Positions 27,833-59,330 of a DNA stretch of 64,000 bases are shown here, one piece after another. The DNA is taken from assembly GCF_024323335.1 (NCBI RefSeq), contig NC_066580.1, positions 142,652,188 through 142,716,187 of the forward strand, read 5' to 3'. The position numbers and the translations under genes were made by a program. How positions within the stretch are numbered: position 1 is the first letter of the stretch; every line of letters starts with the position of its first letter. The notes beneath the pieces were generated by a model. That model was given only the letters and a program-made list of their open reading frames with translations. It did not search any database and was not told where the DNA came from. The stretch is from Lathyrus oleraceus (Eukaryota > Streptophyta > Magnoliopsida > Fabales > Fabaceae).

Positions 27833-27871
27833 CTACGTCGCCCTGATCCTCATACCAGATGAGGTACGTAG
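27833..27871 (+). other. M2 module, LTR A copy 1
   Basis: Outer helix CTACGT (27833-27838) with ACGTAG (27866-27871). Inner helix CCTCAT (27848-27853) with ATGAGG (27859-27864), loop ACCAG. Confidence 0.85.
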
Positions 27872-27925
27872 GCAGGAGATGAGCTGATCTCTCCGGGCGC
27901 CCTTTTTTCTTTTTCAACCCTTTGT

Positions 27926-28090
27926 GTGTGTTTGGAGTCTGACGTAAGTCCAGCGATTGGCAGTTGGTTTCCTGTTCCTGTGTTTGTTGGTTCGGAGTCT
28001 GATGTAAGTCCAACGATTGGAATTCGGTTTCCATGTTTGCCTGTTTATGGGGAGTCTGACGTAAGTCCAGCGATTGGCAGTCGGTTTCCT
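27926..28090 (+). repeat. Three tandem copies of a 55-70 bp unit in LTR A
   Basis: Each unit contains GTCTGACGTAAGTCCAGCGA, then TTGGCAG and TTTCC. Solo LTR B has the same three-copy array at 34795-34985. The 178-codon minus-strand frame over it only mirrors the repeat. Confidence 0.85.
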
Positions 28091-28120
28091 GTTTGTGTTT
28101 TGTGTGGCGTGCGTTAGCCG

Positions 28121-28168
28121 AGCTACGAGTGCTCTGATTCTTCCTCTGGTTAGAGAAGATACGTATGC
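28121..28168 (+). other. M2 module, LTR A copy 2
   Basis: AGCTACG, then CTCTGATT, then hairpin CTTC / GAAG extended by TCT / AGA with a bulge, then ATACGTATGC. The downstream GGGATGCGACATC is where LTR B inserted. Confidence 0.65.
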
Positions 28169-29099
28169 ATGGGATGCGACATCTGTAGCACCTCAAATTT
28201 GCACCTATCATCATACATACATTTTCATATTAGGTCATAGCATATCATGGTCCATTGCATAGCATTGCATTGCCTCTTTTGCCTCAAGTGCAAGCCAATC
28301 AAGAAATTAGGTCAAACTGATCAGGAGATCAGTCAGTCAAGCAAGCAAGTGTGTTTTTCATTGAGCCAAAGCCTTAGGGTTGGTCCAACAAGTTCACATG
28401 ACTTGGGGGTCCATTTGAAGTATTTTGGTCAAGGGTTGAAGGCTCAGAGGTCATCAGTTTGTGCACAGACAGTCTAAAACCCTAAAAAGTCAACTGTCAG
28501 TCAAAGCAGTGGATGGTGGTCATTCTTGTGGAATTTGGGCACCATGATCAATAATCAAGAGTTCATACAACTTGGGACACCATTTGAAGTCAAGTTCTCA
28601 AGGAATTAGGGTTTGGAATTCATCAGTCAATGCATAATCAGTCAGAAACCCTAAAAGTCAACTATTGGTCAACTGTCCATTTAATCAGTGATTGGATGAT
28701 TGGAATTGGTTTGTGAGAGTTCATTCATGTCCAAATAGTCATCATACATCATGCCAAACACCATCATGGAAGAATTTGAAGCCAGATCATAAATTTCTAA
28801 AAATGGAAACTGGGCCTGTAACTGAAACCTGCCATAAATGGAAAGTCTTGATCCTCAAACTTACATTTTGATACAAGCCTCAAATGAATTTTTGCCCAAC
28901 ATGAAAGTTGAAGATCTTGTTCTCCCATTTCCAAAAAGTCCTAGAACTCTCAATTCCCATGTGTGGTTGGCAAGTTATGATCGAATCGATTTCAGAAAAT
29001 CTTGAACTTCAAAGGGCCATATCTCCCAAACCGTTTGGCCAATTTTGGTGGGGTTTTTTTCTACAAGTCACATTTGATCCCCTCTTTCCAAAAATATAA

Positions 29100-31700
29100 A
29101 TTTCATGAGCCAAAACTTCACCAATCAAAATGGCATATTTTGACTTTTCTCATTTAAATGCAAGTTTGACCAAGAGTTGACTTTTTGATATAAACATTTT
29201 TTCAACATTTGGCCAATTGGAACAGCTCAAAAATATCATTTAGAATGTGTTTGCAAAGTCAAAATATGCAGTACATGAGGCCATTGCTTGGTTGCTTGAA
29301 TTGTAAGAAAAGTACAATCTCACCATACTTGTCCATACCATCCACCATGCCTTGCCTTGTACCTCAAAAGAACAGCAATTATGCAGCATTTTTTCTGTCA
29401 CTATGAACACATTTTGCAGCCATAACCAACAGAAAAGAGGCCATGCCCTAGTGGCTTGAAATGTGGAAATGCAAGTACAATTTTCACCAATTACATCCAC
29501 ATTTTCTTGGCTTTGATTCAGCACCACAAGACAGCAGGATAAAGGCATCATTTTCTGTCATGAGCAGTCACTACTGGCAGCCATCACACAAACCAAATTC
29601 ACTCATACTCAAAAACGATTTTGGGGCCATTTTGCAAACAAGAGAAAAAAACAGTAGATGATATCAAACACATTTTTCTGTCATGGAGAACACTGCTAGC
29701 AGTTATCCAACAGCAAAAGTATAGATTCTCTCATTTGGCGTTTGAAGAATTACAATTTCTGTCTTGAACAATAGGCAACTTCTCAACAGCAGGCCTTTAT
29801 CATGATTTTTCTGTCAAACCAATCTTAAGGGCAGACACACAAACCACATGTTTTGACAGCAAAAATATGGAACTTCATCCATTAACATCATCCCACTTGC
29901 ATTGCTAAAAACCTGTCAAAACTCCAAACCACATTAGCAACTTCTAACAGCAGGTTCTATGCTGCATTTTCTGTCATTAAAAAAATCTCATTAACAGCCA
30001 CCACATCAAAAACCAGTAGAACTTCATGGATGCACACTCACTCCAAAACCTCACCTGGCCATTTTGCTTTGCATTTCAAAAACCCTTGCCCCACCACAAA
30101 ACAAACAGAAATTTCTGAACCTAGATGTTCTGTCATGAGCAACCAACATAACAGCTGACCAACCATTTCACTGAGGCAAAGGATTGATTTTCTTGGCATG
30201 CTGTCCAGGAAACTTCAAAGGACAAAAACCTTGTTCTGATTGATACCTTGTTCCCTCACCTTTTTCTGTCATGCTACACACTAATTGCAAACACAATCAA
30301 ACACATTTTTTGGCATACAATCTTTCACTCATCCTAACTCACCCTTGCTATTGGCAGATTTGAAGAAAAAACTGTCAAAGCTAAAGACCACAAAGCAACT
30401 GATAAGAGGGCCTGGTTCAGGAATTTTTCTGTCATTTGGAACACAAAGATTGCAGTCATAAACCAACATAACAAAAACCAAACATTCTCTCAAACTGCAT
30501 CTTGAGGGCATGTGTAATTTTCTGTCAAAACTCAAAAGAGGAAACATTGCACAATACCAAAACAGTAGGACTTTTCATCCTTTTTCTGTCATTTGAAACA
30601 CATGACCAACCATTTTTTGACTCATGCTAAAGACCTTGCTTTTGGCACACTTGCAAAGGCTGTCCAAAAAGCAACATCCAACAGCACAGGATTTTCTGTC
30701 CAAGCTCACAAGTAACCTGAGCCTGGCTTGGCAACATTTCCACCCTTTCCCTGTCATAAACCAGCAGCAGCCCCTAAACCACACTGCATGGCTCACTCCC
30801 TCAAACATGACCTGACTATTTGCCTTGCATTATCAAAAAAAGCTGCCACAACTCCAACAGCAGGAAATTTTCTGTCCAAGCTCAAGAAGAACAAAGTTGC
30901 CTTGCTCAACACAATGTTGCTTCACCATTTTCCTGTCATGTGAGAACCCTGCCTTGCTTCTTCAAATCCTGCTACTAGCATAACAAACAAACTAAAACCA
31001 AACACAAGAGAACAAAACAGCCACAAGCCAACATAACCAACTTCATACACTCTCTCAAACCATCTTGCTGCTTTTTGGCTATTTCTCTCATCTGTCTAAA
31101 CTTCCAATAGTCCAACCTTGCCTTGCTTGATAACAGGACTGCACTCACCCTTGCTATTTGCATCTCACTCCTTCTGTCCAAAACTTCCAATAACCCACCC
31201 TGCCTTGCCAACCAACATGACATAGCAGACCAACAGACCTCATACATTCAAACAAAAATCTCACTTGCATTTTCTGTCCAAAAGCTATCCAAACACACAA
31301 TGAACCTGACCTGGCCTGGCTTGAGATAGTCATCAAACACATAACAAAAACACACTAGCATCATCAAATCAACAAGAATTGCATTGATTCACTCATTCCA
31401 AAAATCACACCTTGCTACTTGCATTTCAATTTCTCCTGTCCCAAAACAAAAAGCACTAAAATCCTGCCTTGGCAACCATAGCATTTTGTTCATCTCAATT
31501 TCTCATCATTGCCAAACAGCAGCCAACCCTCATAACAAAAGCCTTGGCTCTCATTCACTCAAAACCTCACTTTGCTTGCCTCTTCAAACAATCAGTCAAA
31601 CTTCCAAAACCTGAGCCTGGCCATGATTTTTTCTACATCCAAGCAACATGTTGAACCTCTTTTGAACTCCTTTCTTCAACTGTAAGAGCCCCTTGCCTGA
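29100..31700 (+). repeat. Degenerate, G-poor periodic stretch in LTR B
   Basis: About 2.6 kb absent from LTR A. The core TTTTCTGTCAT (or TTTTCTGTCC / CAAA) returns at irregular intervals of roughly 60-170 bp (for example near 29550, 29670, 29970, 30260, 30425, 30585, 30695, 30870). Recurring companions are AACACA, CCAACAGCA and CCTTGCTTGGC. The plus strand is strikingly poor in G, with C outnumbering G about 3 to 1 in lines I counted. Confidence 0.7.
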
Positions 31701-34254: not shown

Positions 34255-34480
34255 TTGTTTGACTTGCTTCCTGTGCAAGTTAGGATTGTTTGACTTGCTT
34301 CCTGTGCAAGTTAGGTTTGTTTGACTTGCTTCCTGTGCAAGCTAGGGTTAGTTTAGACTTGCTTCCTGTGCAAGTTAGGTTTTGCTTGGCTTGCTTCCTG
34401 TGCAAGTTAAGTGTGTGTGTGGCTTGCTTCCTGTGCAAGTCATGACTAGGATAGGCTGGCTCCCTGTGCCATTTAGCTAG
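34255..34480 (+). repeat. Tandem array of about 32-bp hairpin units in LTR B
   Basis: Six clear copies of TTGACTTGCTTCCTGTGCAA followed by GTTAGG, plus a degenerate seventh (GGCTGGCTCCCTGTGCCA). Each unit can fold as CTTGC / GCAAG. Confidence 0.88.
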
Positions 34481-34596
34481 AAACCTTAACTTAGGGATGA
34501 TTTGCATGATAACATCTAGGCTCGAGTCGTAGTCTCCCTAGTTGTGTCTCCCTCTGTTATCTGGTTAGGCTAGTCCTTTGTCCCTGCGTAGGGGAA

Positions 34597-34635
34597 CTAC
34601 ATCGCCCTGATCTTCATACCAGATGAAGTATGTAG
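34597..34635 (+). other. M2 module, LTR B copy 1
   Basis: Outer helix CTACAT (34597-34602) with ATGTAG (34630-34635). Inner helix CTTCAT (34612-34617) with ATGAAG (34623-34628), loop ACCAG. Relative to A copy 1, one pair in each helix changed on both sides. Confidence 0.85.
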
Positions 34636-34794
34636 GCAGGAGATTGAGCTGATCTCTCCTTTGTGTGTGTTGTTTGACAGTTGCTAGGCTCGAGTGCCTG
34701 ACTCCTTAGCAATTTGTTGTCCGTTTGTTTGCGTGTGTGCTTGACAGTTATAGGCTGAGTCCCCGACTCCCTATTAACTTGTCGTGTTGTTGTG

Positions 34795-34985
34795 TGCTTG
34801 GAAGCTGATGTAAGTCCATCGAGTGGCATTTGGGTTCCAGTGTGCGTGTGTTTGGTTCGGATGCTGATGTAAGTCCAGTGATTGGCATTTGGGCTCCATG
34901 TTTGCCTCTTTGTGTGTGTTTAGGTTCGGATGCTGACATAAGTCCAGTGATTGGCAGTCGGGCTCCACGTTTGCCTGTGTTTTGT
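34795..34985 (+). repeat. Three tandem copies of a 55-70 bp unit in LTR B
   Basis: Units with GCTGATGTAAGTCCAGTGAT and TTGGCA(T/G)T. Homologous to 27926-28090 in LTR A, with the same copy number. Confidence 0.85.
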
Positions 34986-35009
34986 CTGTTTGTGTGCGTG
35001 TCAGCCGAG

Positions 35010-35051
35010 CTACGAATGCTCTGATTCTTCTCTCGTCCGAGAAGATACGTA
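35010..35051 (+). other. M2 module, LTR B copy 2
   Basis: CTACG, CTCTGATT, then perfect inner helix CTTCTC (35027-35032) with GAGAAG (35039-35044), then ATACGTATGC. Confidence 0.75.
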
Positions 35052-35101
35052 TGCATAGGATGCGATATCCTAGCGAGCATGTGTCGTTTCCCCAGTCCGA
35101 A

Positions 35102-35141
35102 CTACTTCGACTCTGATGTCTATGCCTGATAGACTAAGTAG
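35102..35141 (+). other. M2 module, LTR B copy 3
   Basis: Outer helix CTACTT (35102-35107) with AAGTAG (35136-35141). Inner helix GTCTAT (35118-35123) with ATAGAC (35129-35134), loop GCCTG. A small hairpin GGATG / CATCC with a CGA loop follows. Confidence 0.85.
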
Positions 35142-35262
35142 GCCCAGGATGCGACATCCTGCCGAGTCAGTTTCAGTCAGTTTCTTTTGTCTCTTTCAGC
35201 CAGTATGTGTGAGTATTTGAACAGTGTTTAGCAACCATTTTCCTTTCTATTGTGCGTGGATC

Positions 35263-35278
35263 CCGTAGAGTACTACGG
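35263..35278 (+). other. M1 hairpin (LTR B)
   Basis: CCGTAG, loop AGTA, CTACGG. In LTR A the fifth pair is C-G instead of A-T. Confidence 0.85.
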
Positions 35279-35281
35279 ATG

Positions 35282-35464
35282 CGTAGGGGTGCTAATACCT
35301 TCCCTTCGCATAACCGACTCCCGAACCCATACTCTTTGGTCGCGAGACCATGTTCTTTCCCAGGTTTACTCTGAGCGTTTCCTTTCCCTCTTTTGGGATA
35401 AATAACGCACGGTGGCGGCTCTGTTGTTCTTTCTTTTCCCGCCGGTTTTTCGCGCGATGCGACA
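35282..35464 (+). promoter_or_regulatory. Conserved U5 block and M3 hairpin (LTR B)
   Basis: GGGGTGCTAATACCTTCCCT, then CGCATAACCGACTCCCGAAC. Hairpin M3 follows: GGTC, loop GCGA, GACC at 35338-35349, a GNRA-type tetraloop. Then CCTCTTTTGGGATAAATAA and the LTR end. The same order is seen in LTR A (35684-35865). Confidence 0.8.
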
Positions 35465-35500
35465 ACATCCTAGCGAGCACGTTCCGCTTTCCCCCCCGAA

Positions 35501-35540
35501 CTACGTCGACTCTGATGTCTGTGTCTGACAGACTACGTAG
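35501..35540 (+). other. M2 module, LTR A copy 3
   Basis: Outer helix CTACGT (35501-35506) with ACGTAG (35535-35540). Inner helix GTCTGT (35517-35522) with ACAGAC (35528-35533), loop GTCTG. Confidence 0.85.
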
Positions 35541-35665
35541 GCCCAGGATGCGATATCCTACCGAGTCCCCTTCTTCCGTCTTTTCTGTGTTTCCTTCCAG
35601 CGTGTGTGTAGTGTTTTGAGCAGTTTCTTTAGCAACCTTTCTTCTATTCTTTTTTAGCATGGATC

Positions 35666-35681
35666 CCGTCGAGTACGACGG
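35666..35681 (+). other. M1 hairpin (LTR A)
   Basis: CCGTCG, loop AGTA, CGACGG. Confidence 0.85.
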
Positions 35682-35741
35682 ATGCGTAGGGGTGCTAATA
35701 CCTTCCCTTCGCATAACCGACTCCCGATCCCATCGATTTCT

Positions 35742-35753
35742 GGTCGCGAGACC
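35742..35753 (+). other. M3 hairpin (LTR A)
   Basis: GGTC, loop GCGA, GACC, about 110 bp before the LTR end. Confidence 0.7.
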
Positions 35754-36074
35754 ATGTCCTTTCCAGGTTTACTTCGAGCGTTTCCTTTCCCTCCTTTGGG
35801 ATAAATAACGCACGGTGGCGGCTCTGTTGTTTCTTTTTCCCGCCGGTTTTTCGCGTAATGCGACAGTACCAACATGGACTTCTGATTAAATCGTCCTAAA
35901 AGGGTATGTATGGAATTCCAAAGGAAATGTATTTGGTTTCAAAGAAACAGTATGTCATTGGGGTGAATGGTTCAATGATTGAAGAGAAATGATGGATCAT
36001 GAAAGACATTGATGGTGCCCTAAGGCAGAAGGAATAGTTAGGAATGTGCTCACAAAGGATTCCCATCCTCGTGC

Positions 36075-36118
36075 CTACGTATTCTCATCGTGCAATGAGA
36101 AAGTCAGAGCATTCATAG
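36075..36118 (-). other. M2 module, X 3' LTR copy b
   Basis: Inner stem TTCTCAT (36082-36088) with ATGAGAA (36095-36101), loop CGTGCA. Confidence 0.75.
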
Positions 36119-36707
36119 TTCGTGGAACCAAGAGAACAAAGGAAAGAGAATGAAAGTGATGAAAAATATAACTTGTACCAAAATACAATGGTAGCATGGG
36201 AAACCATAAAGGTAAATAAACTTTGAACCAAAGAGTAAACATGCATATTTGCCACACAAAAAACAGTAATAACGTGTTTGGTTTAACAACCAAACAACTC
36301 TTGGTTCACAAGGTGGACTCCGATTAAATCATCCTAAAAGGATATATATGGGTCCCACAAGAAAGTGTTATTTGGGCACAAGAAATAATATATCACTATA
36401 GGGAAAAAGCAATTTGAAATCAAAGAAGAATGGTATATTGGATCCATTAAGGAATAAACTCTGAACCAAAGAGAAAACATGTGTATTGGCCTAAAAATAA
36501 AGAATAAAGTGTTTGGTTTCATAGCACAAAGATCTCTTGGTTCACAAGGCAGACTCCGATTAAATCGTCCTAAAAGGATACGCATGGAATCCAAGGAAAA
36601 TGCATTTTATCTCAAAAGGATGGTATTGATTGATGAATGATTAAGAATCAGTGAATAGGGTAGGATTAATACATAAGGTAGCTCGAAGAGAATCTGAATC
36701 CTCGTGC

Positions 36708-36751
36708 CTACGTATTATCATCATGCAGTGAGAAAGTCAGAGCTTTCGTAG
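36708..36751 (-). other. M2 module, X 3' LTR copy c (degenerate)
   Basis: Outer arms CTACG and CGTAG are intact. The inner stem is damaged (TATCA against GTGAG). Confidence 0.55.
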
Positions 36752-36769
36752 TCCGGCCTACTACGAAAA

Positions 36770-36772
<3 letters not shown>

Positions 36773-42800: not shown

Positions 42801-43058
42801 ACAAGTGAACACGACTATCCATGAGTGTATCCTGCATATGTACTCAGCTCGGGTGTAGAGCTTCTCTCATGTAGCATAACCCCAACCCAACAATAGATAT
42901 ACATATATCTAGAATATACAGAGCATGAATATTTAAAGCAGTAAAGAAATGCGATAAATAAAAATAAAGATAAAGGCAAGTAAAACATGTAAATAAACAC
43001 TCAGACATGCAAGGAAACAAACAAAACTAGGCTCTACTCTCTTAAGCTTGAAGTTAAA
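39867..43058 (-). mobile_element. Short non-coding interior of element X
   Basis: Only about 3.2 kb separates PPT and PBS. No protease, RT, RNase H or integrase motif can be seen. Bases 40130-41840 are homologous to the 3' interior of Y (22690-23470 and 48069-48660). Bases 42300-43058 look like the leader between PBS and gag. X thus seems to be a deletion derivative that would have depended on proteins of another copy. Confidence 0.75.
41989..42300 (-). pseudogene. Possible N-terminal gag remnant of X
   Basis: A 103-codon frame begins about 760 bp downstream of the PBS, where the first reading frame of an Ogre-type element would be expected. It contains a Lys/Arg/Gln-rich tail and a segment HNRDRVDMVLGIFMENKTTN that could be the helical N-terminus of a Tat-type gag. 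I do not recognise it with certainty, and a chance frame is almost as likely. Confidence 0.25.
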
Positions 43059-43076
43059 TCCCCAATAGAGTCGCCA
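43059..43076 (-). other. Primer-binding site of element X
   Basis: The minus strand reads TGGCGACTCTATTGGGGA, two bases after the LTR end GCTTCA. It matches the TGGCGACTC type of PBS reported as tRNA-Arg complementary in Ogre elements; the tRNA was not checked here. It proves minus orientation and that 43079 onward is the 5' LTR. Confidence 0.85.
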
Positions 43077-43251
43077 GCTGAAGCTAGTGGAAATATACCT
43101 GAACGCATCGTATGCTCGAACATACAACATAGTCAACATCGAACTGTATTTATTCCCGAAGGAAAAGGAAAACATCGATAAAACCTGGGGGAAAGAGATA
43201 ACTGGGTAAGGAAGTCGATTATGCAAAGGGAAGATATTAGCACCTCCATAT

Positions 43252-43267
43252 CCGTTGTACTCAACGG
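43252..43267 (-). other. M1 hairpin (X 5' LTR)
   Basis: Sense strand CCGTTG, loop AGTA, CAACGG; perfect stem. Confidence 0.85.
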
Positions 43268-43383
43268 GAACCATTTTGATTGTTCTATGGTCGGATGGTG
43301 TTATATCTAAGGTTACTCGCAAAAGAATAAATGGAAATGAAAATAATGGATAAAGTGCTCGGAGAGGATTAGGGCCCTAATGC

Positions 43384-43426
43384 CTACGTATCCTTATAAT
43401 GCAATAAGGAATTCAAAGCTTCGTAG
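43384..43426 (-). other. M2 module, X 5' LTR copy a
   Basis: Inner stem CCTTAT (43392-43397) with ATAAGG (43404-43409), loop AATGCA. Outer arms CTACG and CGTAG. The X1 homologue has CCTCAT with ATGAGG. Confidence 0.8.
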
Positions 43427-43977
43427 TTCATAGAACTAATTGTGGGAGGTGAAAATAAGTGTGATAGGAAATATGTTTTATGAACCAAAGGATTATGTTG
43501 TTTGACTCCAAAAAGGGAATAAAATCTGAACCCAAGAGTAAAACTGGAATTAACCAATATATGGGTAGCAACCGAAAACAAAGAGAAATAAATGTTTGGT
43601 TTTATAGGACAAACAACTCATGGTTCACAAGCAGACACAAGATGGAGCTTAAAGAGATATTGTATTGGAATTCATAGAGGGAATGAAATTTGTACCATAG
43701 AGGGAAACATGCATATTGGCCAAAAGAGAAAGAATAAAATGTTTGGTTTGATATCCAAACAACTCTTGGCACCAACGTGAACTTCTGATTAAATCGTCCT
43801 AAAAGGGTATGCATGGAATTCCAAAAGAACTGTATTTGGTTTCAAAAAACAGTATGTCACTAGGGTGAATGGTTCAATGATTGAAGTTAGATGATGGGAT
43901 CATGAAATACATCGATGGTTCCTTAAGGCAGAAGGAATAATTAGGAATGTGCTCAACAAGGATTCACATCATCGTGC

Positions 43978-44021
43978 CTACGTATTCTCATCGTGCAATG
44001 AGAAAGTCAGAGAATTCGTAG
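43978..44021 (-). other. M2 module, X 5' LTR copy b
   Basis: TTCTCAT (43985-43991), loop CGTGCA, ATGAGAA. Outer arms CTACG and CGTAG. Confidence 0.8.
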
Positions 44022-44613
44022 TTCATGGAACCACGAGAACAAAGGAAAGAGATTGAAAGTGATGAAAAATATAACTTATACCAAAAGACAATGGTAGCAT
44101 GGGAAACCATAAAGGTAGATGAACTTTGAACCGAAGAGTAAACATGCATATTGGCAAAAAAAACAGTAATAAAGTGTTTGGTTTAATAGCCAAACAACTC
44201 TTAGTTCACAAGATGCACTCCGATTAAATCATCCTAAAAGGATATGTATGGGGCCCACAAGAAAGTGTTGTTTGGGTACAAGGAATAGTATATCACTATA
44301 GGGGAACAAGAAATTTGAAATCAAAGAAGAATGGTATATTGGATCCATGAAGGAATAAACTCTGAACCAAAGAGTAAACATACATATTGGCCTAAAAAGA
44401 AAGAATAAAGTGTTTGGTTTCATAGCACAAACATCTCTTGGTTCACAAGACGGACTCCGATTAAATCGTCCTAAAAGAATATGCATGGAATCCAAGGAAA
44501 AATGTATTCGATCTCAAAAGGATGGTATTGATTGATGAATGATAACAATTGAGGTAGAAATAAATAAGGTAGAAATGAATAAGGTAGCTCCCAGAGAATC
44601 TGAATCCTCGTGC

Positions 44614-44657
44614 CTACGTATTCTCATAATACAATGAGAAAGTCAAAGCTTTCGTAG
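44614..44657 (-). other. M2 module, X 5' LTR copy c
   Basis: TTCTCAT (44621-44627), loop AATACA, ATGAGAA. Outer arms CTACG and CGTAG. Confidence 0.78.
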
Positions 44658-45211
44658 TTCAACCCACGCTGAACGAAACAAAGATAGAAAGATTGACTTG
44701 ATAAGAAGTGATGAAAAGTATAGCTTGTACCAACAGAAATGGTAGCATGGGAAACCATAAGGGTAAATGAACTTTGAGCCAAAGAGTAAACATGCATATT
44801 GGTCAAAAAAGAAGGAGTAAAGTGTTTGGTTTCATAGCCAAACATATTTTGGTTCACAAGGTGGAATCCAACTAAATCGTCCTAAAGGATATGTATGGGG
44901 CCCAAAGGAAAGTGTTGTTCGGTACAAGGAATATTATATCACTATAGGGAACAAACAATTTTAAACCAAATAAGAATGGTAAACTGGATCCATGAAGGAA
45001 TGAAGTCTCAACCAAAGAGTAAAGGAGGATTAAATGTCTGGTTTCACAGCCAAACAACTCTTGGTTCACAAGGTGGACTCCTATTAAATCGTACTAAGAG
45101 TATGTTCCTAGAATCCAAGGAAAAATATATTTGATCTTAAAAAGATGGTATTGATTAATGAATAAGGAAATAATAAATAAGGTAGCTCACAGAGAATATG
45201 AACCCTCGTGC

Positions 45212-45255
45212 CTACGTATTCTCATTGTGCAATGAGAAAGTCACATCTTTCGTAG
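45212..45255 (-). other. M2 module, X 5' LTR copy d
   Basis: TTCTCAT (45219-45225), loop TGTGCA, ATGAGAA. Outer arms CTACG and CGTAG. Confidence 0.8.
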
Positions 45256-45345
45256 TTTGACCCACTACGAACAGAGAAAGGAAGATATTTAAGTGATGAA
45301 GAGTTAATAAATAAGATAGCTCACGGAGAATATGAATCCTCGTGC

Positions 45346-45389
45346 CTACATATTCTCACAGTGCAATGAGAAAGTCAAGGCTTTCGTAG
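45346..45389 (-). other. M2 module, X 5' LTR copy e
   Basis: TTCTCAC (45353-45359) with ATGAGAA, a G-U type pair on the sense strand. Only about 135 bp from copy d. Confidence 0.75.
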
Positions 45390-45497
45390 TTCGACGCACT
45401 ATGAACGGAGAGAAGGAGATATTTGAGTGATGAAGAGTTAATAAATAAGATAGTATTAATAAATATGGTAGCTCGTGGAGAATATGAATCCTCATGC

Positions 45498-45541
45498 CTA
45501 TGTATTCTCACCATGCAATGAGAAAGTCAGAGCTTTCGTAG
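45498..45541 (-). other. M2 module, X 5' LTR copy f
   Basis: TTCTCAC (45505-45511), loop CATGCA, ATGAGAA. The outer left arm is CTATG. Confidence 0.7.
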
Positions 45542-46136
45542 TTCGGTCCACTATGAACGAAACAAAGACAACAAGAGACCGAGGCAAGAGAAATGATGTA
45601 TGATAATGGAGGATGAAGAAGACTTAGGAGTAATTTGATATGAACCACACTAAAGTCTATGAACAAAGGCAAATACCTTGAGCAACTGCGTTATTCATCC
45701 TGTACCCAAGGATACCTTAGACAAGGATATGAATTTTCCACTCTCATCATTATTTGTTACTTAAGGCTCATGGCATATGATTCTCATCATAATTTTCAAG
45801 TTGGTGAATAAGAATCATTGATGCTCCTTGCGATGGTGAATACTTTATCAATCATTCAATTCGAATTGTACTAAAGTCTATGAACAAAGGCGAATACCTT
45901 AAGCAAATGGGTCATTCGTCCCGTACCCAAGGATACCCTAGACAAGGATATGAATTCTCCATTCTCATCATTCTTTGCTACTTAAGGCTCATGGCATACA
46001 ACTCGAATCATGATTGATAAGTTGTTGAATAAACACCTTTGATATGCTTTGTATAATCCACTGCTTGATTTTCCTAGGATGCCTTAAAGTATTAACTTGA
46101 GGCCTTGAGATCCACAACTTTATACAAATAGTCTCA

Positions 46137-49029: not shown

Positions 49030-49320
49030 TCTTCATATAGAATCGTCATAGTTTGTTTTGTATGGATGGCTTTCTAATGAGAAAGCTCCAACGTTTTTTG
49101 TGGATGATCTTCTAATGAGAAGACTCCAATGTTTTTTTATGGATGACTTTCTAATGAGAAAACTCCAATGTTTTGTGTGGATGACTTTCGAATGAGAAAT
49201 CTCCAATGTTTTGTGTGGATGATCTTCTAATGAGAAGACTTCAATGTTTTTTATGGATGAATTTCTAATGAGAAAATAACATTGTTGTAATATGGATGAT
49301 CTTCTAATGAGAAGACTCCA
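49030..49320 (+). repeat. Tandem array b of fragment Z (about 42-bp units)
   Basis: About seven units of GGATGATCTTCTAATGAGAA followed by GACTCCAATG, alternating with GGATGACTTTCTAATGAGAA followed by AACTCC. Each folds as CTTCT / AGAAG or TTTCT / AGAAA around AATG. A partial copy recurs at 50600-50780. Confidence 0.88.
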
Positions 49321-49429
49321 ATTTATTCTTATCTTGGATAATTTCCGTGTTAGGAATCTCCAAAATATCTGATTGGATGAATTTCTTATGAGAAATCTTC
49401 AGAACTGACAAATATACTCTAAAGTGTCG

Positions 49430-50110
49430 TCATGTCATGTCTGAACCTGTTGATAAAACTCTCTTTGATTTTTCCCAAGTGTTGTTAGGTCATGTTTGAA
49501 CCTGCGGATGAAACTTTCTTAGAATATCCCAATGTTGAGGTCATTTATGAACCTATTGAAATTTTTCCTTGATTTTCTAGCATTGTCAAGCCATGTTTGA
49601 ACTTGTTGTTGAAACACTTTGGATTTTCCAATGCTGTCAGGTCATGTATGAGCCTGTTGATGGAACTTTCTTTGTATGTTTTTCAGTATTGTCAGGTCAT
49701 GTTTGAATCTGTTGACGAAATCTTTTGATATCCCCTAGCATTGTCAGGTCATGTTTGAACCTGTTATTTAAACTCTGAATATTCCAATGGCCAGGTCATG
49801 TATGAACCTATTGATGGAATTCTTCGATTTTTTTCCCGGTGTTGTCAGATCATGTGTGAACCTATTGAATAAACTTTCCTTGATATTCAGGTTGTCATCA
49901 GGTCAATGTTTGAACCTGTTGTTCAAACATTCTTTGTATGTTCCCTAATGTTGCTCAATCATGTTTGAACCTGTGAATTAAGCATTCTTTGAATATTTCG
50001 GTATTATCAAGTCATGTTTGAACCTGTTGTTGAAAATTCTTTCAATATTTCGGTGTTTGTCAAGTCATGTACGAACCTGGTGTTAAAATATCTTTGCATA
50101 TTCCCCCATT
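49430..50110 (+). repeat. Tandem array c of fragment Z (about 55-65 bp units)
   Basis: About eleven units with TGTCAGGTCATGTTTGAACC then TGTTGATGAAACT and a T-rich spacer. Confidence 0.88.
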
Positions 50111-50410: not shown

Positions 50411-50441
50411 ATCATATGAAGAGTGTCATGCTTCATATGAT
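50411..50441 (+). other. Perfect 12-bp hairpin before PPT
   Basis: GATCATATGAAG and CTTCATATGATC around a short loop, about 15 bp before the PPT. Element Y has a related hairpin in the same place (21314-21339, minus). Confidence 0.75.
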
Positions 50442-50454
50442 CTGGTCGAAGATA

Positions 50455-51170: not shown

Positions 51171-53264
51171 TATCATACCCTAAATTTTACCCCGCCTAAT
51201 TCATATGCATCAATTCATCAACAATCATTCATCTGCATTCACTCATTTGTGTCCATTCATTTGCACTCATGATTAACTAGCATTTCATTTTGCATCATGA
51301 TCATTTCATCTTGTTATAAGATCCCATCTACATGCATAGTTTAAAATTCAATAATAAAGGATTAAATATCTTTGTTCATGTTTAGTTTGATAAACTCAGT
51401 TCATTACATTTTATCATAAATCATTTAAGTCATTGGGGTGATTGCTTTGGATGATTCATGACCTTTCTGGATGCCACTTGTGGTTGACTAATGTCTTGAT
51501 TTTCTAATCATAATTACTCATAAATTTGTGATTCACTCATACAAACATCTATCATATATTATGGCATTCATGCATTTGTTCTTCCAAGCATTTCTTTTAT
51601 CATACATCCATAATTTACACTTGTTGCATTATATTTAGTGTTTGAGTAGGTAGAGGTTTTGGCTTGGATTGCATTAAGGTTTAGCTTTACTTATTTAAAA
51701 TTATATCTTGGCATTCCTAAAAATTAGGTTCTAATGGTTTTATCATGATATTGTTCTTAGGTTATAGCATGAAGTTTTTTATGTTGAGTAGAAGTAATAA
51801 TAATAATTAAAACTTATTTTACAATTTAAAATTGAGCTAATAATTTAAAAAAAGGGGTAATCATAGTCATGATAATTTATTTGATCCTATTAATTGGATT
51901 TAAGTAAAATATTTGGTCACATTTTATAAATAGATATCATTGCTCTATCTTAAAATTCAAAAAATAGTAACTATAATTTCACTGTCTTTTACAAAACAAA
52001 TATAAAAAAAAAGATTTCGGTTAAAATTCAAAAAATAGTTACTATAATTTCACTTTGTCTTTTACATCACAAATATAAAAAAAAAAAAAAAGATTTCAGA
52101 AAATATAAAAATAAGTTTTTATATTATAATAAGGTACAAGTTTTTTATAATCATTAAAAAAAGAGAAGAGAATAAGTCCAAAAGAAGTAGATCTCTCAAG
52201 CCTTGAATTGACTAGGCCATACTACCATCCCTATACCTTAACCATAATACCCCTTAACCATAGTACCCCTTTGCACTTGTGGAGCAGAATTTTGTCTTGT
52301 ATATGCAGTAAAACAGAGCATCAAGTTAACATCATTTCAGAATAAGACACAAAGCATAAGAGTCAAACTAACAAAAATGATTTCAGAATAAGACAAAAAG
52401 CATAAGAGTCAAACTAAGAAATGCAATACAGATTAGTAGCAAGTTTTAGCATAGCAGACCTTTTTTTCATAAGAATCTCTGAACATCAAAGAGTTAGCCA
52501 CTGCTGTTACTATCAAAGAGATAAACAGATATATGATGCCATATATGATGCCATAAACAAACATTCAAGAAAAAATAGATATTCAAGTACCTCATGATAA
52601 TCCAAATATATGATGCCATAAACAAATATTCAAGAAAAAACAGAGTTACTGCAAGGAGAAAACACAGACTACATCAAGAAGAAGAGGTGTAAAATTAGCT
52701 CAGAATTAAAACCTAACACGTCGTCGCCGTACCTGAGGATAACCACCGCGCCAAAAGAATCTGTTGCTCTTTTCGGTATATTTCTTCATTCTCCCTAGTA
52801 ATTTATTTAGCATCTATATCAAATGTCATGAGGACATGAGTTTTGAGTAATAATTGTGCTCCATTTCAGTTTATTCCTGGACTTTCCCATCGTTAACTTT
52901 CGAACACTGAGAGTCTCCGATCCGGATCCCTAGCTTAGGTTTTGTGAAAAAAATTATGGATTCGGTTCAGGATAAGGTTTAGTGTAAGATTGTTCTTGAG
53001 GTCTTGTTGATTTGAACAAGGGTTATGGTTACGATTTTTGCCTTTTGTTGATTTATCAGCCATTGTTCTTCGTGTTTAAAAAGAAAAACTATGTTCTGAG
53101 AGTTAGAACAAAACGACCGTGTTTATTCTCTTTTAGGGGTTCACCATGTTATTTCATTAAATGCTATAATCGGGTCAGCACAACCGACCCGTCCATCCAT
53201 GTTTGGAGTGCCCCATTGGACTTTTAGTGCTGGACCTTCGTGCCTTTAATTCACCCACATCCAG
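51171..53264 (+). repeat. LTR-like sequence W, 5' part
   Basis: Starts TATCATACCCTAAATTTTAC after the PPT (TG changed to TA). No gene. It contains three small tandem duplications: about 51950-52005 with 52023-52092, 52337-52375 with 52382-52420, and 52530-52575 with 52608-52650. The U5 block expected at the end of such an LTR was not found up to 57840, so W is truncated or rearranged. Confidence 0.55.
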
Positions 53265-53399
53265 AGATCCATCTCAGGCCCATTCATTTTGTTATTAAAA
53301 ATTAATTTTGCTTTTTTTTTTTATATAATAGCAAATAGTTTAGTTTTTTTTTAAACGAATATTTTAAGGTAAAGAGAAAAAAAGAGTTTAAGTTTTAGT
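53265..53399 (+). repeat. Direct repeat D left of giant inverted repeat
   Basis: CTCAGGCCCATTCATTTTGT through GAGTTTAAGTTTTAG. A second copy D' lies at about 54702-54837 between the arms. Confidence 0.85.
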
Positions 53400-54565
53400 T
53401 TTTTTTATATTTTTATAACATAATTTGAAATAATAATGAAAATAACTAAATTAACTTTTTTTTTAAATATTCTTATAACACAATCTAAAAATAATGATGA
53501 AAATAACTAAATTATTATTTTTTAATATTTTTATAACACAGTCTAAAAATAATAATGAAAACAACTAAACTAGCGTTTTTTAAATATTTTTATAACACAA
53601 TCTAAAAATAATGATGAAAATAACTAATTAATCATTTTTAATGATTTTTATAACATGATTTAAGCTAGAATAAAATAAATGGTAAACTTATATTTTTTTG
53701 ATTTTTTTTATGACATGATCTAAAATTAAAAGAAAATAAATATTAAACTTATCTTTTGGAATTTTATGACATGATCTAAAATTAAAAGAAAATAAATGGT
53801 AATTTTTTTTTAAAGTTTTTATGCCATGATCTAAAATTAAAAGAAAATAAATGGTAAACTATTTTTTTGGAATTTTTATGACATGATCTAAAATTAAAAG
53901 AAAATAAATGGTAACCTCTTTTTTTAGAATATTTTTTTAATCTAAAATTAAAAGAAAATAAATGGTAAACTATTTTTTTGGAAATTTTATGATATAATCT
54001 AAAATTAAAAGAAAATAAATGGTAAACCTCTTTTTTGGAATATTTTATGATATAATCTAATATTAAAAGAAAATAAATGCTAAGCTTATTTTTTATTTTA
54101 TTTTATGACATAATCTAATAATAATAGAAAATAAATGTTAAATTTAATTTTTTTATGACATAATCTAATAATAAATAATGAAAATAACTAAATTAACTTT
54201 TTTTTTAAAAAATTATAACATAATCTAAAATACAAAAAAATAAATGGAAAACTCTTTTTGTGATTTTATTATTATGATTTCTATGTATTTTTATTTATTT
54301 TTTAAAGAAAGAAATAAAGAGAATTTCTAAACATCCACTAAAAAAATTAAATAAAACTAAAATTAAGTAGATATAAAGAAAAAAAATCTAAGTTTATACT
54401 AATATTCATCTTATTTTGTTTTTTCCCTTAAAAAAAATTAATTCAAATTATATTTTTATGAAAATGTTGATTCTACTTTATTTAATAATAAAAAGATTTG
54501 ATCTTTTATTTTTATTCATTTTTATCTTGTTAAAAATGTATTGAAATAATAATAAAACACACCAT
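53400..54565 (+). repeat. Left arm of giant inverted repeat
   Basis: About 1.17 kb, over 80 percent A+T by eye. It is built of diverged 50-60 bp units such as ATGACATGATCTAAAATTAA followed by AAGAAAATAAATGGTAAAC, then other segments including AAAGATTTGATCTTTTATTT. The reverse complement of the whole order is found in 54948-56155. Confidence 0.85.
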
Positions 54566-54947
54566 TTTTACTAATTATTAAATAACATCTTTGTTTCTTT
54601 TATTAAAAAAATTATATATATGGTTTAGATTTTCAATTTATCTCCTTTTAATTTATTTTAAACAAAAATCAATTTCTTATTAAAAATTAATAAGATAAAA
54701 ATGAATCCACCTCAGGCCCATTCATTTTGTTATTAAAAATTAATTTTGCATCTTTTTTTTTATAATAGCAAATAGTTTAGTTTTTTTTAAACGAATATTT
54801 TAAGGTAAAGAGAAAAAAAAAGAGTTTAAGTTTTAGCTTTATTTTAAATAACATCTTTGTTTTTTTTATAAAAAAAATTATATATATGGTTTAGATTTTC
54901 GATTTATCTCATTTTAATTTATTTTAAAAAAATAATTTCTTATTTAA
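54566..54947. repeat. Spacer of inverted repeat with direct repeats Q, D', Q'
   Basis: Q (about 54575-54680, ATAACATCTTTGTTTC then TTATATATATGGTTTAGATT) is repeated in the same direction at about 54843-54945. D' (54702-54837) stands between. Confidence 0.8.
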
Positions 54948-56155
54948 TAATTAGTAAAAAATGTGTGTTTTATTATTATTTCAATACATTTTTAACAAGA
55001 TAAAAATGAATAAAAATAAAAGATCAAATCTTTTTATTATTAAATAAAATAGAATCATCATTTTCATAAAAATATAATTTGAGTTTAATTTTTTTAAGGG
55101 AAAAAACAAAATAAGATGAATATTAGTAGAAACTTCGAATTTTTTTCTTTATATATACTTTTAATTTTAATTTAATTTTTTTTAGTGGATGTTTAGAAAT
55201 TCTCTTTATTTCTTTATTTAATAAATAAATAAAAATACATAGAAATCATAATAATAAAATCACAAAACGAGTTTTCCATTTATTTTTTTGTATTTTAGAT
55301 TATGTTATAATTTTTAAAAAAAAATTAATTTAGTTATTTTCATTATTTATATTAGATTTGTTATAAAAAATGAAAGAAATTAAGTTTAACATTTATTTTC
55401 TATTATTATTAGATTATGTTATAAAAATAAAAATAAAATAAGTTTACTTTTATTTTCTTTTAATTTTAGATCATATCATAAAATATTCCAAAAAAAGAGA
55501 TTTACCATTTATTTTCTTTTAATTTTAGATTATATCATAAAATTTCCAAAAAAAGAGTTTACCATTTATTTTCTTTTAATTTTAGCTTATATCATAAAAA
55601 TATTCTAAAAAACAAGTTTACCATTTATTTTCTTTTAATTTTAGATCATGTAATAAAAATTCCAAAAAAAAATAGCTTACCATTTATTTTATTTTAATTT
55701 TAGATCATATCATAAAACCTCCAAAAAAAAATATACCATTTATTTTCTTTTAATTTTAGATCATGTCATAAAATTCCAAAAGATAAGTTTAATATTAATT
55801 TTCTTTTAATTTTAGATCATGTCATAAAAAAAATTCAAAAAAAATAAGTTTACCATTTATTTTATTTCAGTTTAAATCATGTTATAAAAATCATTAAAAA
55901 TGATTAATTTAGTTATTTTCATAATTATTTTTAAATTGTGTTATAAAAATATTTTTAAAAAGTTAGTTTAGTTGTTTTCATTATTATTTTTAGATTGTGT
56001 TATAAAAATATTAAAAAAATTAATTTAGTTATTTTCATTATTATTTTTAGATTGTGTTATAAGAATATTTAAAAAAAGTTAATTTAGTTATTTTTATTAT
56101 TATTTCAAATTATGTTATAAAAACATAAAAAAAAAGTTAATTTAGTTATTTTTAT
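54948..56155 (-). repeat. Right arm of giant inverted repeat
   Basis: Reverse complement of 53400-54565 in the same order of segments, with substitutions and small indels. The 50-60 bp units appear as GTTTACCATTTATTTTCTTT, then TAATTTTAGATCATGTCATA. Confidence 0.85.
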
Positions 56156-57840
56156 TATTATTTTTAGATTATGTTAGAAAAAATAAATTAAAAAAATAGT
56201 TACGTTTAATTTATTTGCTTTTATTATTACTTTAGTTAGATTTTAAAGAGAAGAAAAAAAATTATTTATTTGTTTTATCATCATACTTTTTTTAAATTAG
56301 TTATTTAAAAGAGTTTTAATTTTCAATGTTATTTTACAATTGTGTTGTAACTAATGCTACTTCTACAATTTCAATTCAAAATTTTCTATTTTGCCTTTAT
56401 TAAGATAAATACATCAATATCAATAAATAAGTAAACTAATTTTTAAAAACATATCCCTCTTTTGTTTATTTTTTAATCGGTACGTGAATAAGTCAACTAA
56501 TTAACTTGTTTAATAATAAAAATTTCAAATAAATTTTTTTCCAACCATAGTAATCCAATAAATGTAAATTAACGGGGGAGTGAATGAATGACATGGAGTT
56601 CAACAGTGACAATGTATTATTTTGAAACAGGTTACATTTATGGTTTAGTTTTGATTATGATATTAGTTTAAATTTTTCGATTCATGATATTAGTTTGAAA
56701 AGATGATTTATGATATTAGTTTAAAAAGTTTGATTTATGGTATTAGTTTTTATTTCTACAAGCATGCAACATAACAATACAAAGATGAATATTAAAATGT
56801 GTGGGTTTTATCTAAAGTTGGTTTTACTTGTTTATTTACAGAAAAATTTCATCGCAAGAAATATACAATCGAAGCACTTAACAAAATATAGAGATGGAAA
56901 AAAAGATGAAGAGTATACCAATTCGAAAGTTATCGGAGGAAGAATCCATAGGGATGGACCCTCCCTTTCTCTTGTTATTTCTCCTTCGGTTAATGCTTTT
57001 TGTTCCTTGCTGCGAGGTTGCTTTGGATTGGTGATTGGACTTTACAAATGGAGGTTAGGGTTTTAAGACTTAGTTGTTGTTGTTCTTCGATGTGAAAAAT
57101 AACAACTTTAGGGATATTGATCGTGGATGAATTTTCTGTGCAAATGTGTATGTTATTTATAGTGTAAGCATTAGGTCAAGAACTAAATTTGATTTATCTG
57201 ATTAGGAAGTTTTGTATGTGATTTGATCTGATTTGTTTCTTTGTGAAAGAGTTCATGAATATGGATGGATTCATGGACTATGCAAATGTAATAGCAAAAA
57301 ATATGAAGGCATTTGATTATTTTTTATAATTTTTAATGTTATAATAATAATGTAATAATTTAAAATAATAACAAAAAATAACTAATCAACTTCAATAATA
57401 GTAATAATAAAAAATAAAAAAAATATTTTTTATTTTTTATTTTTTTGGACTAAAGTACATTAAAATAAAAAAATACTAATTATTAAAAGGATGATGGTGA
57501 TGAATCGGTGTAAAAAATTTTACACTGACAGTGTATAGTAATTAATCTCTATTAAAAAATAATTTAATTAAAAGTCGAAAATAAAAAATAAAAAATAAAT
57601 AAGTGCAATTTTTAATTTTAAAATAATGTAAATGAAGGTAAAACACAAAAATGAGAAAAAAAACTCTAAAATTGGGAAATGTAGGATTCAAACCCAAGAC
57701 CTTATGCTTGTACCTCTTTGAATTCTTACTTCACTAGCAAATAAGCTATCTCATGTATATAAAATAGAATATGATTAAAACCTATATAATAGTAAAATGT
57801 TTGGATAAAATTTGGGTATAACAAAAATGTTTCATTGTTC
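56156..57840. other. AT-rich sequence without recognisable gene
   Basis: Flank of the inverted repeat. A frame at 56737-57066 (109 codons) shows no family I know. At 57508-57536 two small hairpins overlap (GTGTAAA / TTTACAC and ACACTG / CAGTGT), a pattern seen at ends of some plant miniature transposons, but no partner end was found. Confidence 0.5.
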
Positions 57841-58907
57841 TTCAGTATCTACCACGAGGTTGATATGGGTGATAGGAAGTCAGCTTATTGGTTATGGACA
57901 AAAGATGAATAAATTTTTTTTTTGGAAAAATTATATGCACGTTGATGAATGCAGAAGCATAATTTTGTTTTGTTTTTGAGATGCAAAAAAATGTAATGTC
58001 ATGTTTATGCATGTTTTTTTGTTTATTTTTAGGCAATATGGTTTCAAAGGTCAAGGTATGTATGACGGACAGTTTTGGTTGATCTTCACATAAGTTTCTC
58101 ACCAGGTAAAATCTAGGGTTATAAAGGCTCATAGAGTCATGAATCCAACACAAAAATATTTCCTCTTACTACAAATTACTCGTTGTGCGTCAATTCCTCA
58201 CGATGATCTCTTCTAGGCGAGGTTCTCATGCCAACCAACATGAGATATACATCTTGCGGACAATACTATGCAACCATCGACTTCAGGGTTCTAGTAAACG
58301 CTTCCCAAAGTCACAGATTCAACATGAATAGGTTCTCACTTACATAAAATTACTTACTGGGCGTCAATTCCTTAAAGGGAATAATATTCTAGGTGAGGTT
58401 CTCGTATCAACCCTATGAGATATACATCTCGTAAGCCATACTACGCAACCATCAATACTAGTAGGCCACGAGTTAAATGTTCTAAAAGAAGGTTCTTAGA
58501 GTCACAGACCCATCAAGAAAATATTGTCGCTTACGGTAAATTACTTGTCGGGTAACAACATCCTCAAGAGGATCTACTCTAAGTGATTTTTTCATGTCGA
58601 CCCCACGAGATATACATCTCACAAGCCCAAACTATACAACCATCGTCATATCTTATGTTTGTTCTCTAGAATCGGGTGAAGAGTGTTTCCCACATTGTGT
58701 TGAAGCAATCAGAGTATCCATACCAACAACACATGGAAACCCTATAGATATAGTAAATATAACACATGAGATAAATAGAAACAAATGAAAGAGGAAAGTC
58801 AAACACAAGAGATAAATAGAAACAAATGATAGAGGAAAGTCAAACACAAAAATCAAACAATAGCACAAAACAAATTAAACTAGGTTTGACTTTCTTTAGG
58901 GAACCAG
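57841..58907 (-). other. 5' leader interior of element Y with about 180-bp tandem repeats
   Basis: Between the PBS and (lost) coding part of Y. Three units (about 58114-58299, 58300-58476 and 58480-58650) share AGAGTCACAGA, AAATTACTTGTCGGG, GAGGTTCTCATGTCAACCC, GAGATATACATCTC and ACTATGCAACCATCG. The GAGAT / ATCTC hairpin is in each. No gene. Confidence 0.75.
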
Positions 58908-58927
58908 GATCCCCAACAGAGTCGCGA
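58908..58927 (-). other. Primer-binding site of element Y
   Basis: The minus strand reads TCGCGACTCTGTTGGGGATC two bases after the LTR end ATGCGACA. This is the X-type PBS TGGCGACTC with one change (second base G to C). Confidence 0.82.
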
Positions 58928-59131
58928 GCTGTCGCATCTCAAAAAATATGACCTTGCGAGTGCATCGCACGCTCACAAATGACTATCAGATTCGCCATCA
59001 AATTTTATTTATTCCTAAGAGGGAAGGAAAAATATCGATAAACCCCTAAAAATGACAAAGATGTGGTCGTTGCAACCAAATTGAGTTCGGGAATCGATTA
59101 TGCAAGGGGAAGGTATTGGCACCCATCACAT

Positions 59132-59147
59132 CCGTTGTACTCAACGT
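59132..59147 (-). other. M1 hairpin (Y 5' LTR)
   Basis: Sense strand CGTTG, loop AGTA, CAACG, with a terminal mismatch. Confidence 0.8.
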
Positions 59148-59288
59148 GAATCGTTTACTTAGTTTTGTGCATAAGTGTTAGCTTTAAAATGTTTGCTTTC
59201 CTCAGGTAATTAAGAATTTGAGAAAAAGAGAGAAGGACTAAAAAATAAGTTTTTATCAGGGTGCCTGACGAGACTTTGAATCTCGCTC

Positions 59289-59330
59289 CTACATATCTCC
59301 AGGTGCAGTGGAGAACTCAAGGCTACGTAG
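59289..59330 (-). other. M2 module (Y 5' LTR)
   Basis: Inner stem CTCCA (59297-59301) with TGGAG (59309-59313), loop containing TGCA. Outer arms CTACA and CGTAG (G-U type pair on the sense strand). Confidence 0.78.

Follow-up and report, generated by a model that had tools for sequence, protein, structure and literature searches.

A probable RNA domain with covarying helices, reiterated in the long terminal repeats of Ogre-like retrotransposons of Lathyrus oleraceus

Introduction

Structured leaders are already known from retroviruses and from the yeast long terminal repeat (LTR) retrotransposon Ty1. In Ty1, a pseudoknot in the 5′ leader is bound by the C-terminal region of Gag, and breaking it impairs retrotransposition; a role in packaging could not be shown, according to the cited sections of PMC4974528. 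Outside the LTR class, ribozymes resembling that of hepatitis delta virus (HDV) occur in non-LTR retrotransposons, as the sections of PMC4035085 cited here report. Here we describe a module found in 19 copies in a 64,000-nt window of the Lathyrus oleraceus genome (contig NC_066580.1, positions 142,652,188 to 142,716,187 of the forward strand; assembly GCF_024323335.1), where it lies in the LTRs of Ogre-like retrotransposons. On the sense strand of these LTRs, each copy would encode an RNA domain of about 72 nt that is complete in itself and whose helices covary between element families.

Ogre elements are classified as Ty3/gypsy, non-chromovirus, OTA, Tat, Ogre in the cited sections of PMC6317226, which mention no leader RNA domain; the term "secondary structure" is absent from the main text of that paper. 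A 2025 survey of structured RNA motifs in 130 plant genomes reported 16 motifs supported by covariation (PMC12218528), and the words retrotransposon, transposable, LTR and pseudoknot do not occur in its main text as cited. An initial annotation of the window had called the module undescribed; we likewise found no such leader fold of a plant LTR retrotransposon in the open-access literature, outside which most subscription papers lie, probably including the original Ogre papers. Literature matches to sequence strings numbered 0, 11 and 0 papers; in the one of the 11 examined, the string is a maize actin primer.

Results

The initial annotation had presented a "two-helix module" in four LTR families, A, B, X and Y. 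Its outer helix (H1) and inner hairpin (H2) are present, but they form only part of a four-helix domain of about 72 nt. What had been missed is a second hairpin (H3) directly 3′ of H1, a pseudoknot helix (PK) of 4-6 bp that joins the linker before a conserved UGA to bases 3′ of H3, the UGA in front of H2, and the genome-wide scale of the repetition. Read 5′ to 3′, the domain consists of the H1 5′ arm (CUACG), a linker, the PK 5′ strand (GCUC and variants), UGA, H2, UA, the H1 3′ arm (CGUAG), GC, H3, a short junction and the PK 3′ strand (GAGC and variants). Because H1 and PK interleave, the domain would be an H-type pseudoknot, two loops of which contain hairpins, if both helices form together, as they presumably do in our model of the fold.

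PK was suggested unprompted by RNAalifold on alignment A5, a plain MAFFT alignment of 38 A/B-type copies (33 from the genome and 5 from the window) to which no structure had been fitted. It occurs as GCUC/GAGC, ACUC/GAGU, GCCC/GGGC, GCCU/AGGC (in Y1) and GUUC/GAAC (in genome locus L047). The arms of H3 vary in a compensatory manner, with GAGGAT/ATTCTC, GAGGAT/ATCCTT, GGAGAT/ATCTCT, CAGGAT/ATCCTG, TAGGAT/ATCCTA and CGAGAT/GTCTCG, and the compensatory H1 and H2 arm pairs quoted in the initial annotation for A versus B copies and for X and Y copies are correct when the arms are read out. Its statement that changes keep pairing is true in general, with one or two mispairs in H1 or H2 of A2, B2, X45.5, X23.8, X36.7 and X9.6. 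Of the single-stranded letters, UA precedes the H1 3′ arm in all 19 window copies, while UGA before H2 and GC after the H1 3′ arm are each found in 18.

The copies were detected with a regular expression (AACTACG...TACGTAGGC, 1 and 2 mismatches allowed). It matched 21 times in the window, and the matches at 6430+ and 7705+ were judged by inspection to be due to chance; 30 first-order Markov windows gave 0-4 matches each. The motif CTACGTAGGC (at most 2 mismatches) occurs 48 times in the window versus 9.85 ± 3.07 times in shuffles. About 19 copies had been placed between 27833 and 59330: the count agrees, but four minus-strand copies (8187-8145, 8995-8952, 9623-9580 and 23806-23764) lie upstream of that range. 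A and B copies are sense on the plus strand and X and Y copies on the minus strand, as had been read. A covariance model built from the 13 minus-strand copies (R1) found five of the six plus-strand copies as its next-best matches (E 0.0009 to 0.041; the following match had E 0.48), so that A/B copies are homologous to X/Y copies. A model based on copies of the A/B type (R2) recovers every one of the 12 X copies in the window as well as Y1.

Covariation of the helices is seen between families. Because the inner arm of X copies comes out one column off register under MAFFT, only A/B-type copies were used for A5, and X and Y copies were aligned by covariance model. The 33 genome copies of A5 were taken from 56 distinct sequences among 61 regular-expression matches, which remained of 70 distinct matches in the fetched loci after 9 had been dropped by eye (chance, reverse-strand or nested). 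In A5, 97.7% of the 646 cells of H1-H3 pair, compared with 82.4% in shuffles and at most 46.1% when partners are slid, and 110 cells are changed on both sides versus 28.7 in shuffles. PK alone pairs in 92.2% of 180 cells versus 77.3% shuffled, with 35 doubly changed cells versus 12.4. The model to which alignments A6 and A7 were fitted comprised H1-H3 and did not include PK. Over all 22 pairs of A7 (103 distinct rows), 93.4% of 2,201 cells pair and 463 are doubly changed versus 138.1; pairing falls to 29-47% when partners are slid by 1-3 columns. In the numbers of pairs with two-sided change and of pair types, 34 shuffles and 1 shuffle of 500, respectively, were at least as high as A7.

Shared ancestry was taken into account with a tree-based null, for which we used a custom script that is similar to, but is not, R-scape: on a FastTree tree with Fitch states, substitutions were re-dealt per branch in 150 simulations. 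From 118 rows, three were dropped (two cut by the end of the locus, one weak partial match), and the remaining 115 gave 100 distinct rows: 55 around pattern matches, 20 with an unusual PK linker, 19 from the window, 4 from loci L077-L080 and 2 from random stretches. Ranked by score, the first 11 of 2,346 column pairs all lie in the proposed helices, the 12th and 13th outside them. Five column pairs reach E < 0.05, compared with four in an earlier 77-row run, so the larger alignment for which the initial annotation had called does contain significant covarying pairs. Windows of five pairs score 465 (H2), 333 (H3) and 226 (PK), versus at most 148 anywhere in the simulations. H1 varies little in this set, with one covarying pair; its covariation is seen genome-wide. 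A row's own PK partner gives at least 4 bp in 80 of the 100 rows, versus 35% of 2,000 random pairings.

In the 3.795-Gb assembly, places that match the H1 arms of the domain number well over 100,000. Patterns that fix these arms and CTGA, and leave H2, H3 and PK free, have more than 128,000 exact matches; reversed-pattern controls gave none for the G..C and A..U patterns and 0 or 1 over all patterns. The fifth H1 pair is G..C in 101,740 matches and changed on both sides in 44,414, of which 26,339 are A..U. Changes on one side are rarer than this, with 2,550 G.U and 3,329 A.C. Among the two-sided matches listed, one is neither A..U nor U..A (C1:10428777). Since copies inherit changes, these counts are not independent events; nevertheless, A..U is carried by at least three linker types and U..A by another. 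The third PK position is seldom a purine (293 genome matches). Twenty copies with such an unusual linker were fetched; eight have GTGT, and all eight carry ACAC at the predicted place 3′ of H3; they form a diverged lineage, which is probably misregistered in PK of A7. One of eight random 10-kb stretches of the genome contains full modules (L051).

The initial annotation had interpreted the modules as a selected structure reiterated in LTRs between the promoter and the primer-binding site, and this core of its reading is supported. In four two-LTR insertions, examined as the check on intact elements, the copies lie inside the LTR and 5′ of the putative primer-binding site. These insertions have 2-4 modules, in the 3′ part of the LTR, starting 0.36-1.04 kb before the LTR end; the six modules of the X element in the window lie 0.28-2.47 kb before its putative primer-binding site. 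The LTRs are 1,668 and about 4,750 bp long in two insertions and end in ..GCGACA (GCAACA in one 5′ LTR). Four 5′ LTRs are directly followed by GCTGGCGACTCTGCTGGGGA or a near variant (one GCTAGCG..), the putative primer-binding site. A TATA-like CATATAG or TATATAG precedes the first module by about 200 nt in the A element of the window and in loci L041 and L045. Judged from these positions, the modules would be transcribed as part of the leader of the genomic RNA.

Protein searches of nine frames, one of which had no match, detected Retrotrans_gag, Asp_protease_2 and RVT_1 in the module-bearing locus L045, gag in L040 and L047, and RVT_1 in L048; the protease of L047 was slightly under the cut-off (24.0 versus 24.3). 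An additional open reading frame (ORF) encoding the Pfam domain PF24924 (DUF7745) lies between the modules and gag in L047 (3956-5506, E 5.8e-133) and between the modules and reverse transcriptase in L048 (4570-2939, E 4.7e-94), positions that are relative to modules and not to LTR pairs. The searched frames of L040, L041 and L045 contained no DUF7745. The gag, protease and reverse transcriptase domains assign the carrier to Ty3/gypsy and the extra ORF makes it Ogre-like, so the Ogre lineage likely carries the modules. Ogre elements have an intron between protease and reverse transcriptase; in L045 these two lie in separate frames (7392-8339 and 8531-10000).

Table 1. Module copies and associated signals in the window; scores are those of covariance model R2.
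Feature	Position	Strand	Score (bits)	Remarks
Module A1	27830..27900	+	75.4	H1, PK 5′ strand GCCC, H2, H3, PK 3′ strand GGGC
Module A2	28120..28191	+	47.9	H3 incomplete, no PK 3′ strand where another LTR starts at ~28190
Module B1	34594..34665	+	62.9	Fifth outer pair A-U (CTACA/TGTAG); no PK 3′ strand
Module B2	35007..35080	+	80.9	PK AUGCUC/GAGCAU
Module B3	35099..35169	+	82	Fifth outer pair U-A (CTACT/AGTAG); PK ACUC/GAGU
Module of duplicated B LTR end	35498..35568	+	81.2	Earlier "A copy 3"
Module X	45469..45544	-	37.4	First of six in this stretch
Module X	45317..45392	-	34.5	Second of six; PK imperfect
Module X	45183..45258	-	27.7	Third of six; PK not formed
Module X	44585..44660	-	35.9	Fourth of six
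Module X	43949..44024	-	42.1	Fifth of six; PK 3/4 pairs
Module X	43355..43429	-	34.3	Sixth of six, closest to putative primer-binding site
Module X	36679..36754	-	35.3	Degraded
Module X	36046..36121	-	42.5	
Module X	23735..23809	-	25.4	Two H1 mispairs
Module X	9551..9626	-	53.1	
Module X	8923..8998	-	60.2	
Module X	8116..8190	-	40.3	UAA replacing UGA
Module Y (Y1)	59261..59333	-	32.9	PK GCCU/AGGC
Putative primer-binding site TGGCGACTCTATTGGGGA of X element	43059..43076	-		279 nt 3′ of last module; near-identical sequence after four 5′ LTRs elsewhere
TATA-like CATATAG, putative promoter	27627..27633	+		~200 nt 5′ of module A1

One copy has to be reassigned: "A copy 3" of the initial annotation (35501-35540) is not in the A LTR, which ends before any third module copy, but sits in a duplicate of the B LTR end. 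This duplicate arises from a head-to-tail repetition (35067-35464 and 35467-35865, 85% identical) of the 3′ unit of the B LTR together with its module. At about 28190, the A LTR is interrupted by the apparent start of another LTR, TGTAGCACCTCAAATTTGCACC, as at the LTR start of L041. A separate hairpin stands 88-98 nt 3′ of the last module at 35263-35278 (+), 35666-35681 (+) and 43267-43252 (-), with arms CCGTAG/CTACGG, CCGTCG/CGACGG and CCGTTG/CAACGG and the loop AGTA, followed by GGTGCTAATAYCTTCCC. Sequences able to pair with the H1 5′ arm, such as CGTAGTT..AACTACG, are found upstream of the modules in L033, L043, L025 and L015.

Some further motifs were considered for the module and rejected. 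An extra hairpin directly 5′ of it (H0) can be drawn in 38 of 96 copies versus 32 of 96 shuffled; a palindromic TGCA kissing loop is no general rule, since most X copies and Y have TGCA and A and B do not; and a hammerhead core and a kink-turn were absent by eye. Elsewhere, the window contains a 1.2-kb inverted repeat, 92% identical, of A/T-rich tandem units of about 58 bp (53399-56303), tandem units of about 38 and 52 bp (49036-50102) and, by eye, fragments resembling Ty1/copia gag, integrase and reverse transcriptase (2378-6352, +).

Discussion

The pattern of substitutions favors sense-strand RNA as the selected form, because Watson-Crick pairs have changed to G.U more often than to A.C on the internal branches of the tree (17.0 versus 3.4), chiefly through H3; on the tips, the corresponding values are 22.0 and 13.0, with 27.3 for other mispairs. 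Judged from the sequences, we regard a selected sense-strand RNA fold as highly probable. The arms might instead be DNA palindromes that are kept by template-switch repair, or as sites for basic leucine zipper (bZIP) factors, with no function in RNA. They are short inverted repeats, and TACGTA, to which bZIP factors bind, is palindromic; the missing G.U excess in H1 decay and in the PK cells, given below, would also suit this explanation. It is nonetheless very unlikely, as interleaved PK and H1 are impossible in any single cruciform, UGA, which the search for the window copies did not require, recurs in 18 of the 19, and G.U is favored over A.C on the internal branches overall. That the similarity is due to chance or to an alignment artefact has a negligible probability: A6 and A7 were fitted to H1-H3 and the copies were chosen by motif, but A5 is a plain MAFFT alignment, PK lies outside the model, and both the partner slides and the reversed-pattern controls argue for genuine pairing.

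A number of observations weigh against the RNA fold or parts of it. All copies come from one genome, and those from outside the window were fetched by patterns fixing most of H1, UGA and GGC, so that the conservation of these parts and some of the H1 pairing are there by construction; the unpaired GA, UGA, UA and GC are 95-100% conserved in the 100-row set, most rows of which were fetched by patterns fixing those letters. On the internal branches, changes to mispairs other than G.U and A.C amount to 19.0. The ratio of G.U to A.C cells, 80:5 in H3, 12:5 in H2 and 7:3 in H1, is 8:15 in PK, and single-copy decay at the fifth H1 pair genome-wide shows more A.C than G.U. Folding energy is only mildly below that of shuffles and barely separates the two strands (mean z -1.27 sense and -1.00 antisense, sense being lower in 61 of 100). 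PK pairs in 84.7% of A7 cells, has all four pairs (G.U allowed) in 14 of the 19 window copies and is absent or partial in A2, B1, X44.0, X45.4 and X45.25; 12 of the 20 copies with an unusual linker have no exact PK complement at the expected place, which we interpret as uncompensated mutations of dead copies. No individual PK or H1 pair reaches E < 0.05 in the 100 rows. By two of the five count measures on A5, the weaker ones, shuffles did as well in many cases: 75 of 500 for H1-H3 and 450 of 500 for PK in the number of pairs with two-sided change, and 224 and 481 of 500, respectively, in the number of pair types. The H1 5′ arm can pair upstream with at least 6 bp in 26 of 96 copies versus 7 of 96 shuffled, so that a switch is possible. 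Finally, a stricter TATA pattern had no match near the modules, the putative start site being placed by the TATA-like motif in three LTRs.

We propose that the domain would act as a cis-acting signal of the genomic RNA, most likely as a multi-copy binding site for the element's own Gag or for a host protein, and that binding would serve packaging, dimerisation or the start of reverse transcription. A multi-copy recognition site is proposed because the reiteration, the conserved single-stranded letters and the placement before the primer-binding site fit it. This assignment of function, for which the Gag-bound leader pseudoknot of Ty1 is a precedent, is tentative; the explanation as a whole, an RNA domain acting as a cis-acting signal, appears about as apt to prove right as wrong.

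Among other functions, the modules might be translation elements, a structured leader bringing ribosomes to the first ORF without scanning, either like an internal ribosome entry site or by shunting. In L041 and L045, the distance from a point about 30 nt past the TATA-like motif to the first long ORF is 2.0-2.4 kb. These two leaders show no depletion of ATG (46 versus 33.6 ± 5.5 and 54 versus 42.0 ± 6.3 in mononucleotide shuffles; in an arbitrary stretch of L037, 941 nt long, the count is 9 versus 12.8 ± 3.2), which makes plain scanning unlikely. Plant pararetroviruses use shunting, as stated in the cited sections of PMC5902531. The many separate copies spread over the LTR, rather than a single element beside the ORF, make a role in translation unlikely. 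Alternatively, a compact pseudoknot might stabilize the RNA by stalling a 5′-3′ exonuclease, as viral exonuclease-resistant RNAs (xrRNAs) do. In favor of this, the module is small, has interleaved helices and often occurs in several copies; however, searches of 34400-36000 and 43000-45700 gave no xrRNA family with E <= 1, and the PK partner of the module is the linker before H2, whereas in xrRNAs it is typically a hairpin loop. We consider this decidedly unlikely.

The helix order raises the possibility of a self-cleaving HDV-like ribozyme or a non-cleaving descendant. HDV-like ribozymes are built in the order P1, P2, P3 hairpin, P1′, P4 hairpin, J4/2, P2′, to which the module order H1, PK, H2, H1, H3, PK corresponds as P1, P2, P3, P1, P4, P2. 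In these ribozymes, P1 has about 7 bp with G first at the cleavage site, P3 is short, P1.1 joins the P3 loop to bases after P1, and J4/2 contains the catalytic C followed by A residues. In the module, a C often stands before the last strand; the junction there is often NC, and CAA in the GTGT lineage. H1 has 5-7 bp and starts with C, its first pair is absent from 13 of the 100 rows that have letters at both positions, and H2 has 6-7 bp with loops that vary (ACCAG, TCTGGTTAG, TTGCAC..) and, by eye, no constant partner after H1 that would form P1.1; the junctions seem to differ as well. Because the helix lengths do not fit, we do not class the modules as HDV-like. Cleavage at several copies per LTR would moreover cut the genomic RNA, and no Rfam ribozyme matched in the window at the gathering threshold or, at E <= 1, in the two stretches searched, so that a ribozyme is highly unlikely. 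A broader idea, which we regard as doubtful, is a new RNA class: a pseudoknot with HDV-like helix order, either a ribozyme or derived from one or a reiterated recognition unit, which LTR retrotransposons multiplied and diversified.

No known RNA family accounts for the module. The Rfam search that the initial annotation had suggested gave no family matching a module: Rfam 15 had no match in the window at the gathering threshold and, at E <= 1, none for 34400-36000 and none on the module strand for 43000-45700, where SCARNA7 matched the plus strand, opposite the X modules (E 0.13, 18.1 versus 65 bits). A scan of viral contigs matched two stretches and one of bacterial and archaeal contigs four, none with an inner hairpin by eye; a further pattern scan of viral contigs gave 0, and a 399-base LTR end had no DNA similarity to plasmids and phages.

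With more than 128,000 exact pattern matches in a single genome, the module amounts to a collection of natural mutants of unusual size, from which compensatory changes can be read off. Compact RNAs follow from the fold; they are open to synthesis and to assays of Gag binding, exonuclease resistance, translation and cleavage. If confirmed, the fold would help to explain how plant retroelements that are among the largest and most abundant recognize their own RNA, and it would merit a family of its own in Rfam and inclusion when LTRs are annotated.

Comparison with described systems places the modules as follows. The carrier resembles the Ogre lineage in its long LTRs, the putative primer-binding site after the 5′ LTR, the extra ORF before gag (at two loci) and the Ty3-type reverse transcriptase. 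Retroviral packaging and dimerisation hairpins are likewise structured leader elements, which bind Gag, and their fold differs from that of the modules. With Ty1, to which we claim no relation in sequence, the modules share a leader pseudoknot in the RNA of an LTR retrotransposon; yet the Ty1 structure, as described in the cited sections of PMC4974528, is one long-range pseudoknot that joins R with sequence past the primer-binding site, whereas the modules would be self-contained domains of 72 nt, repeated within the LTR.

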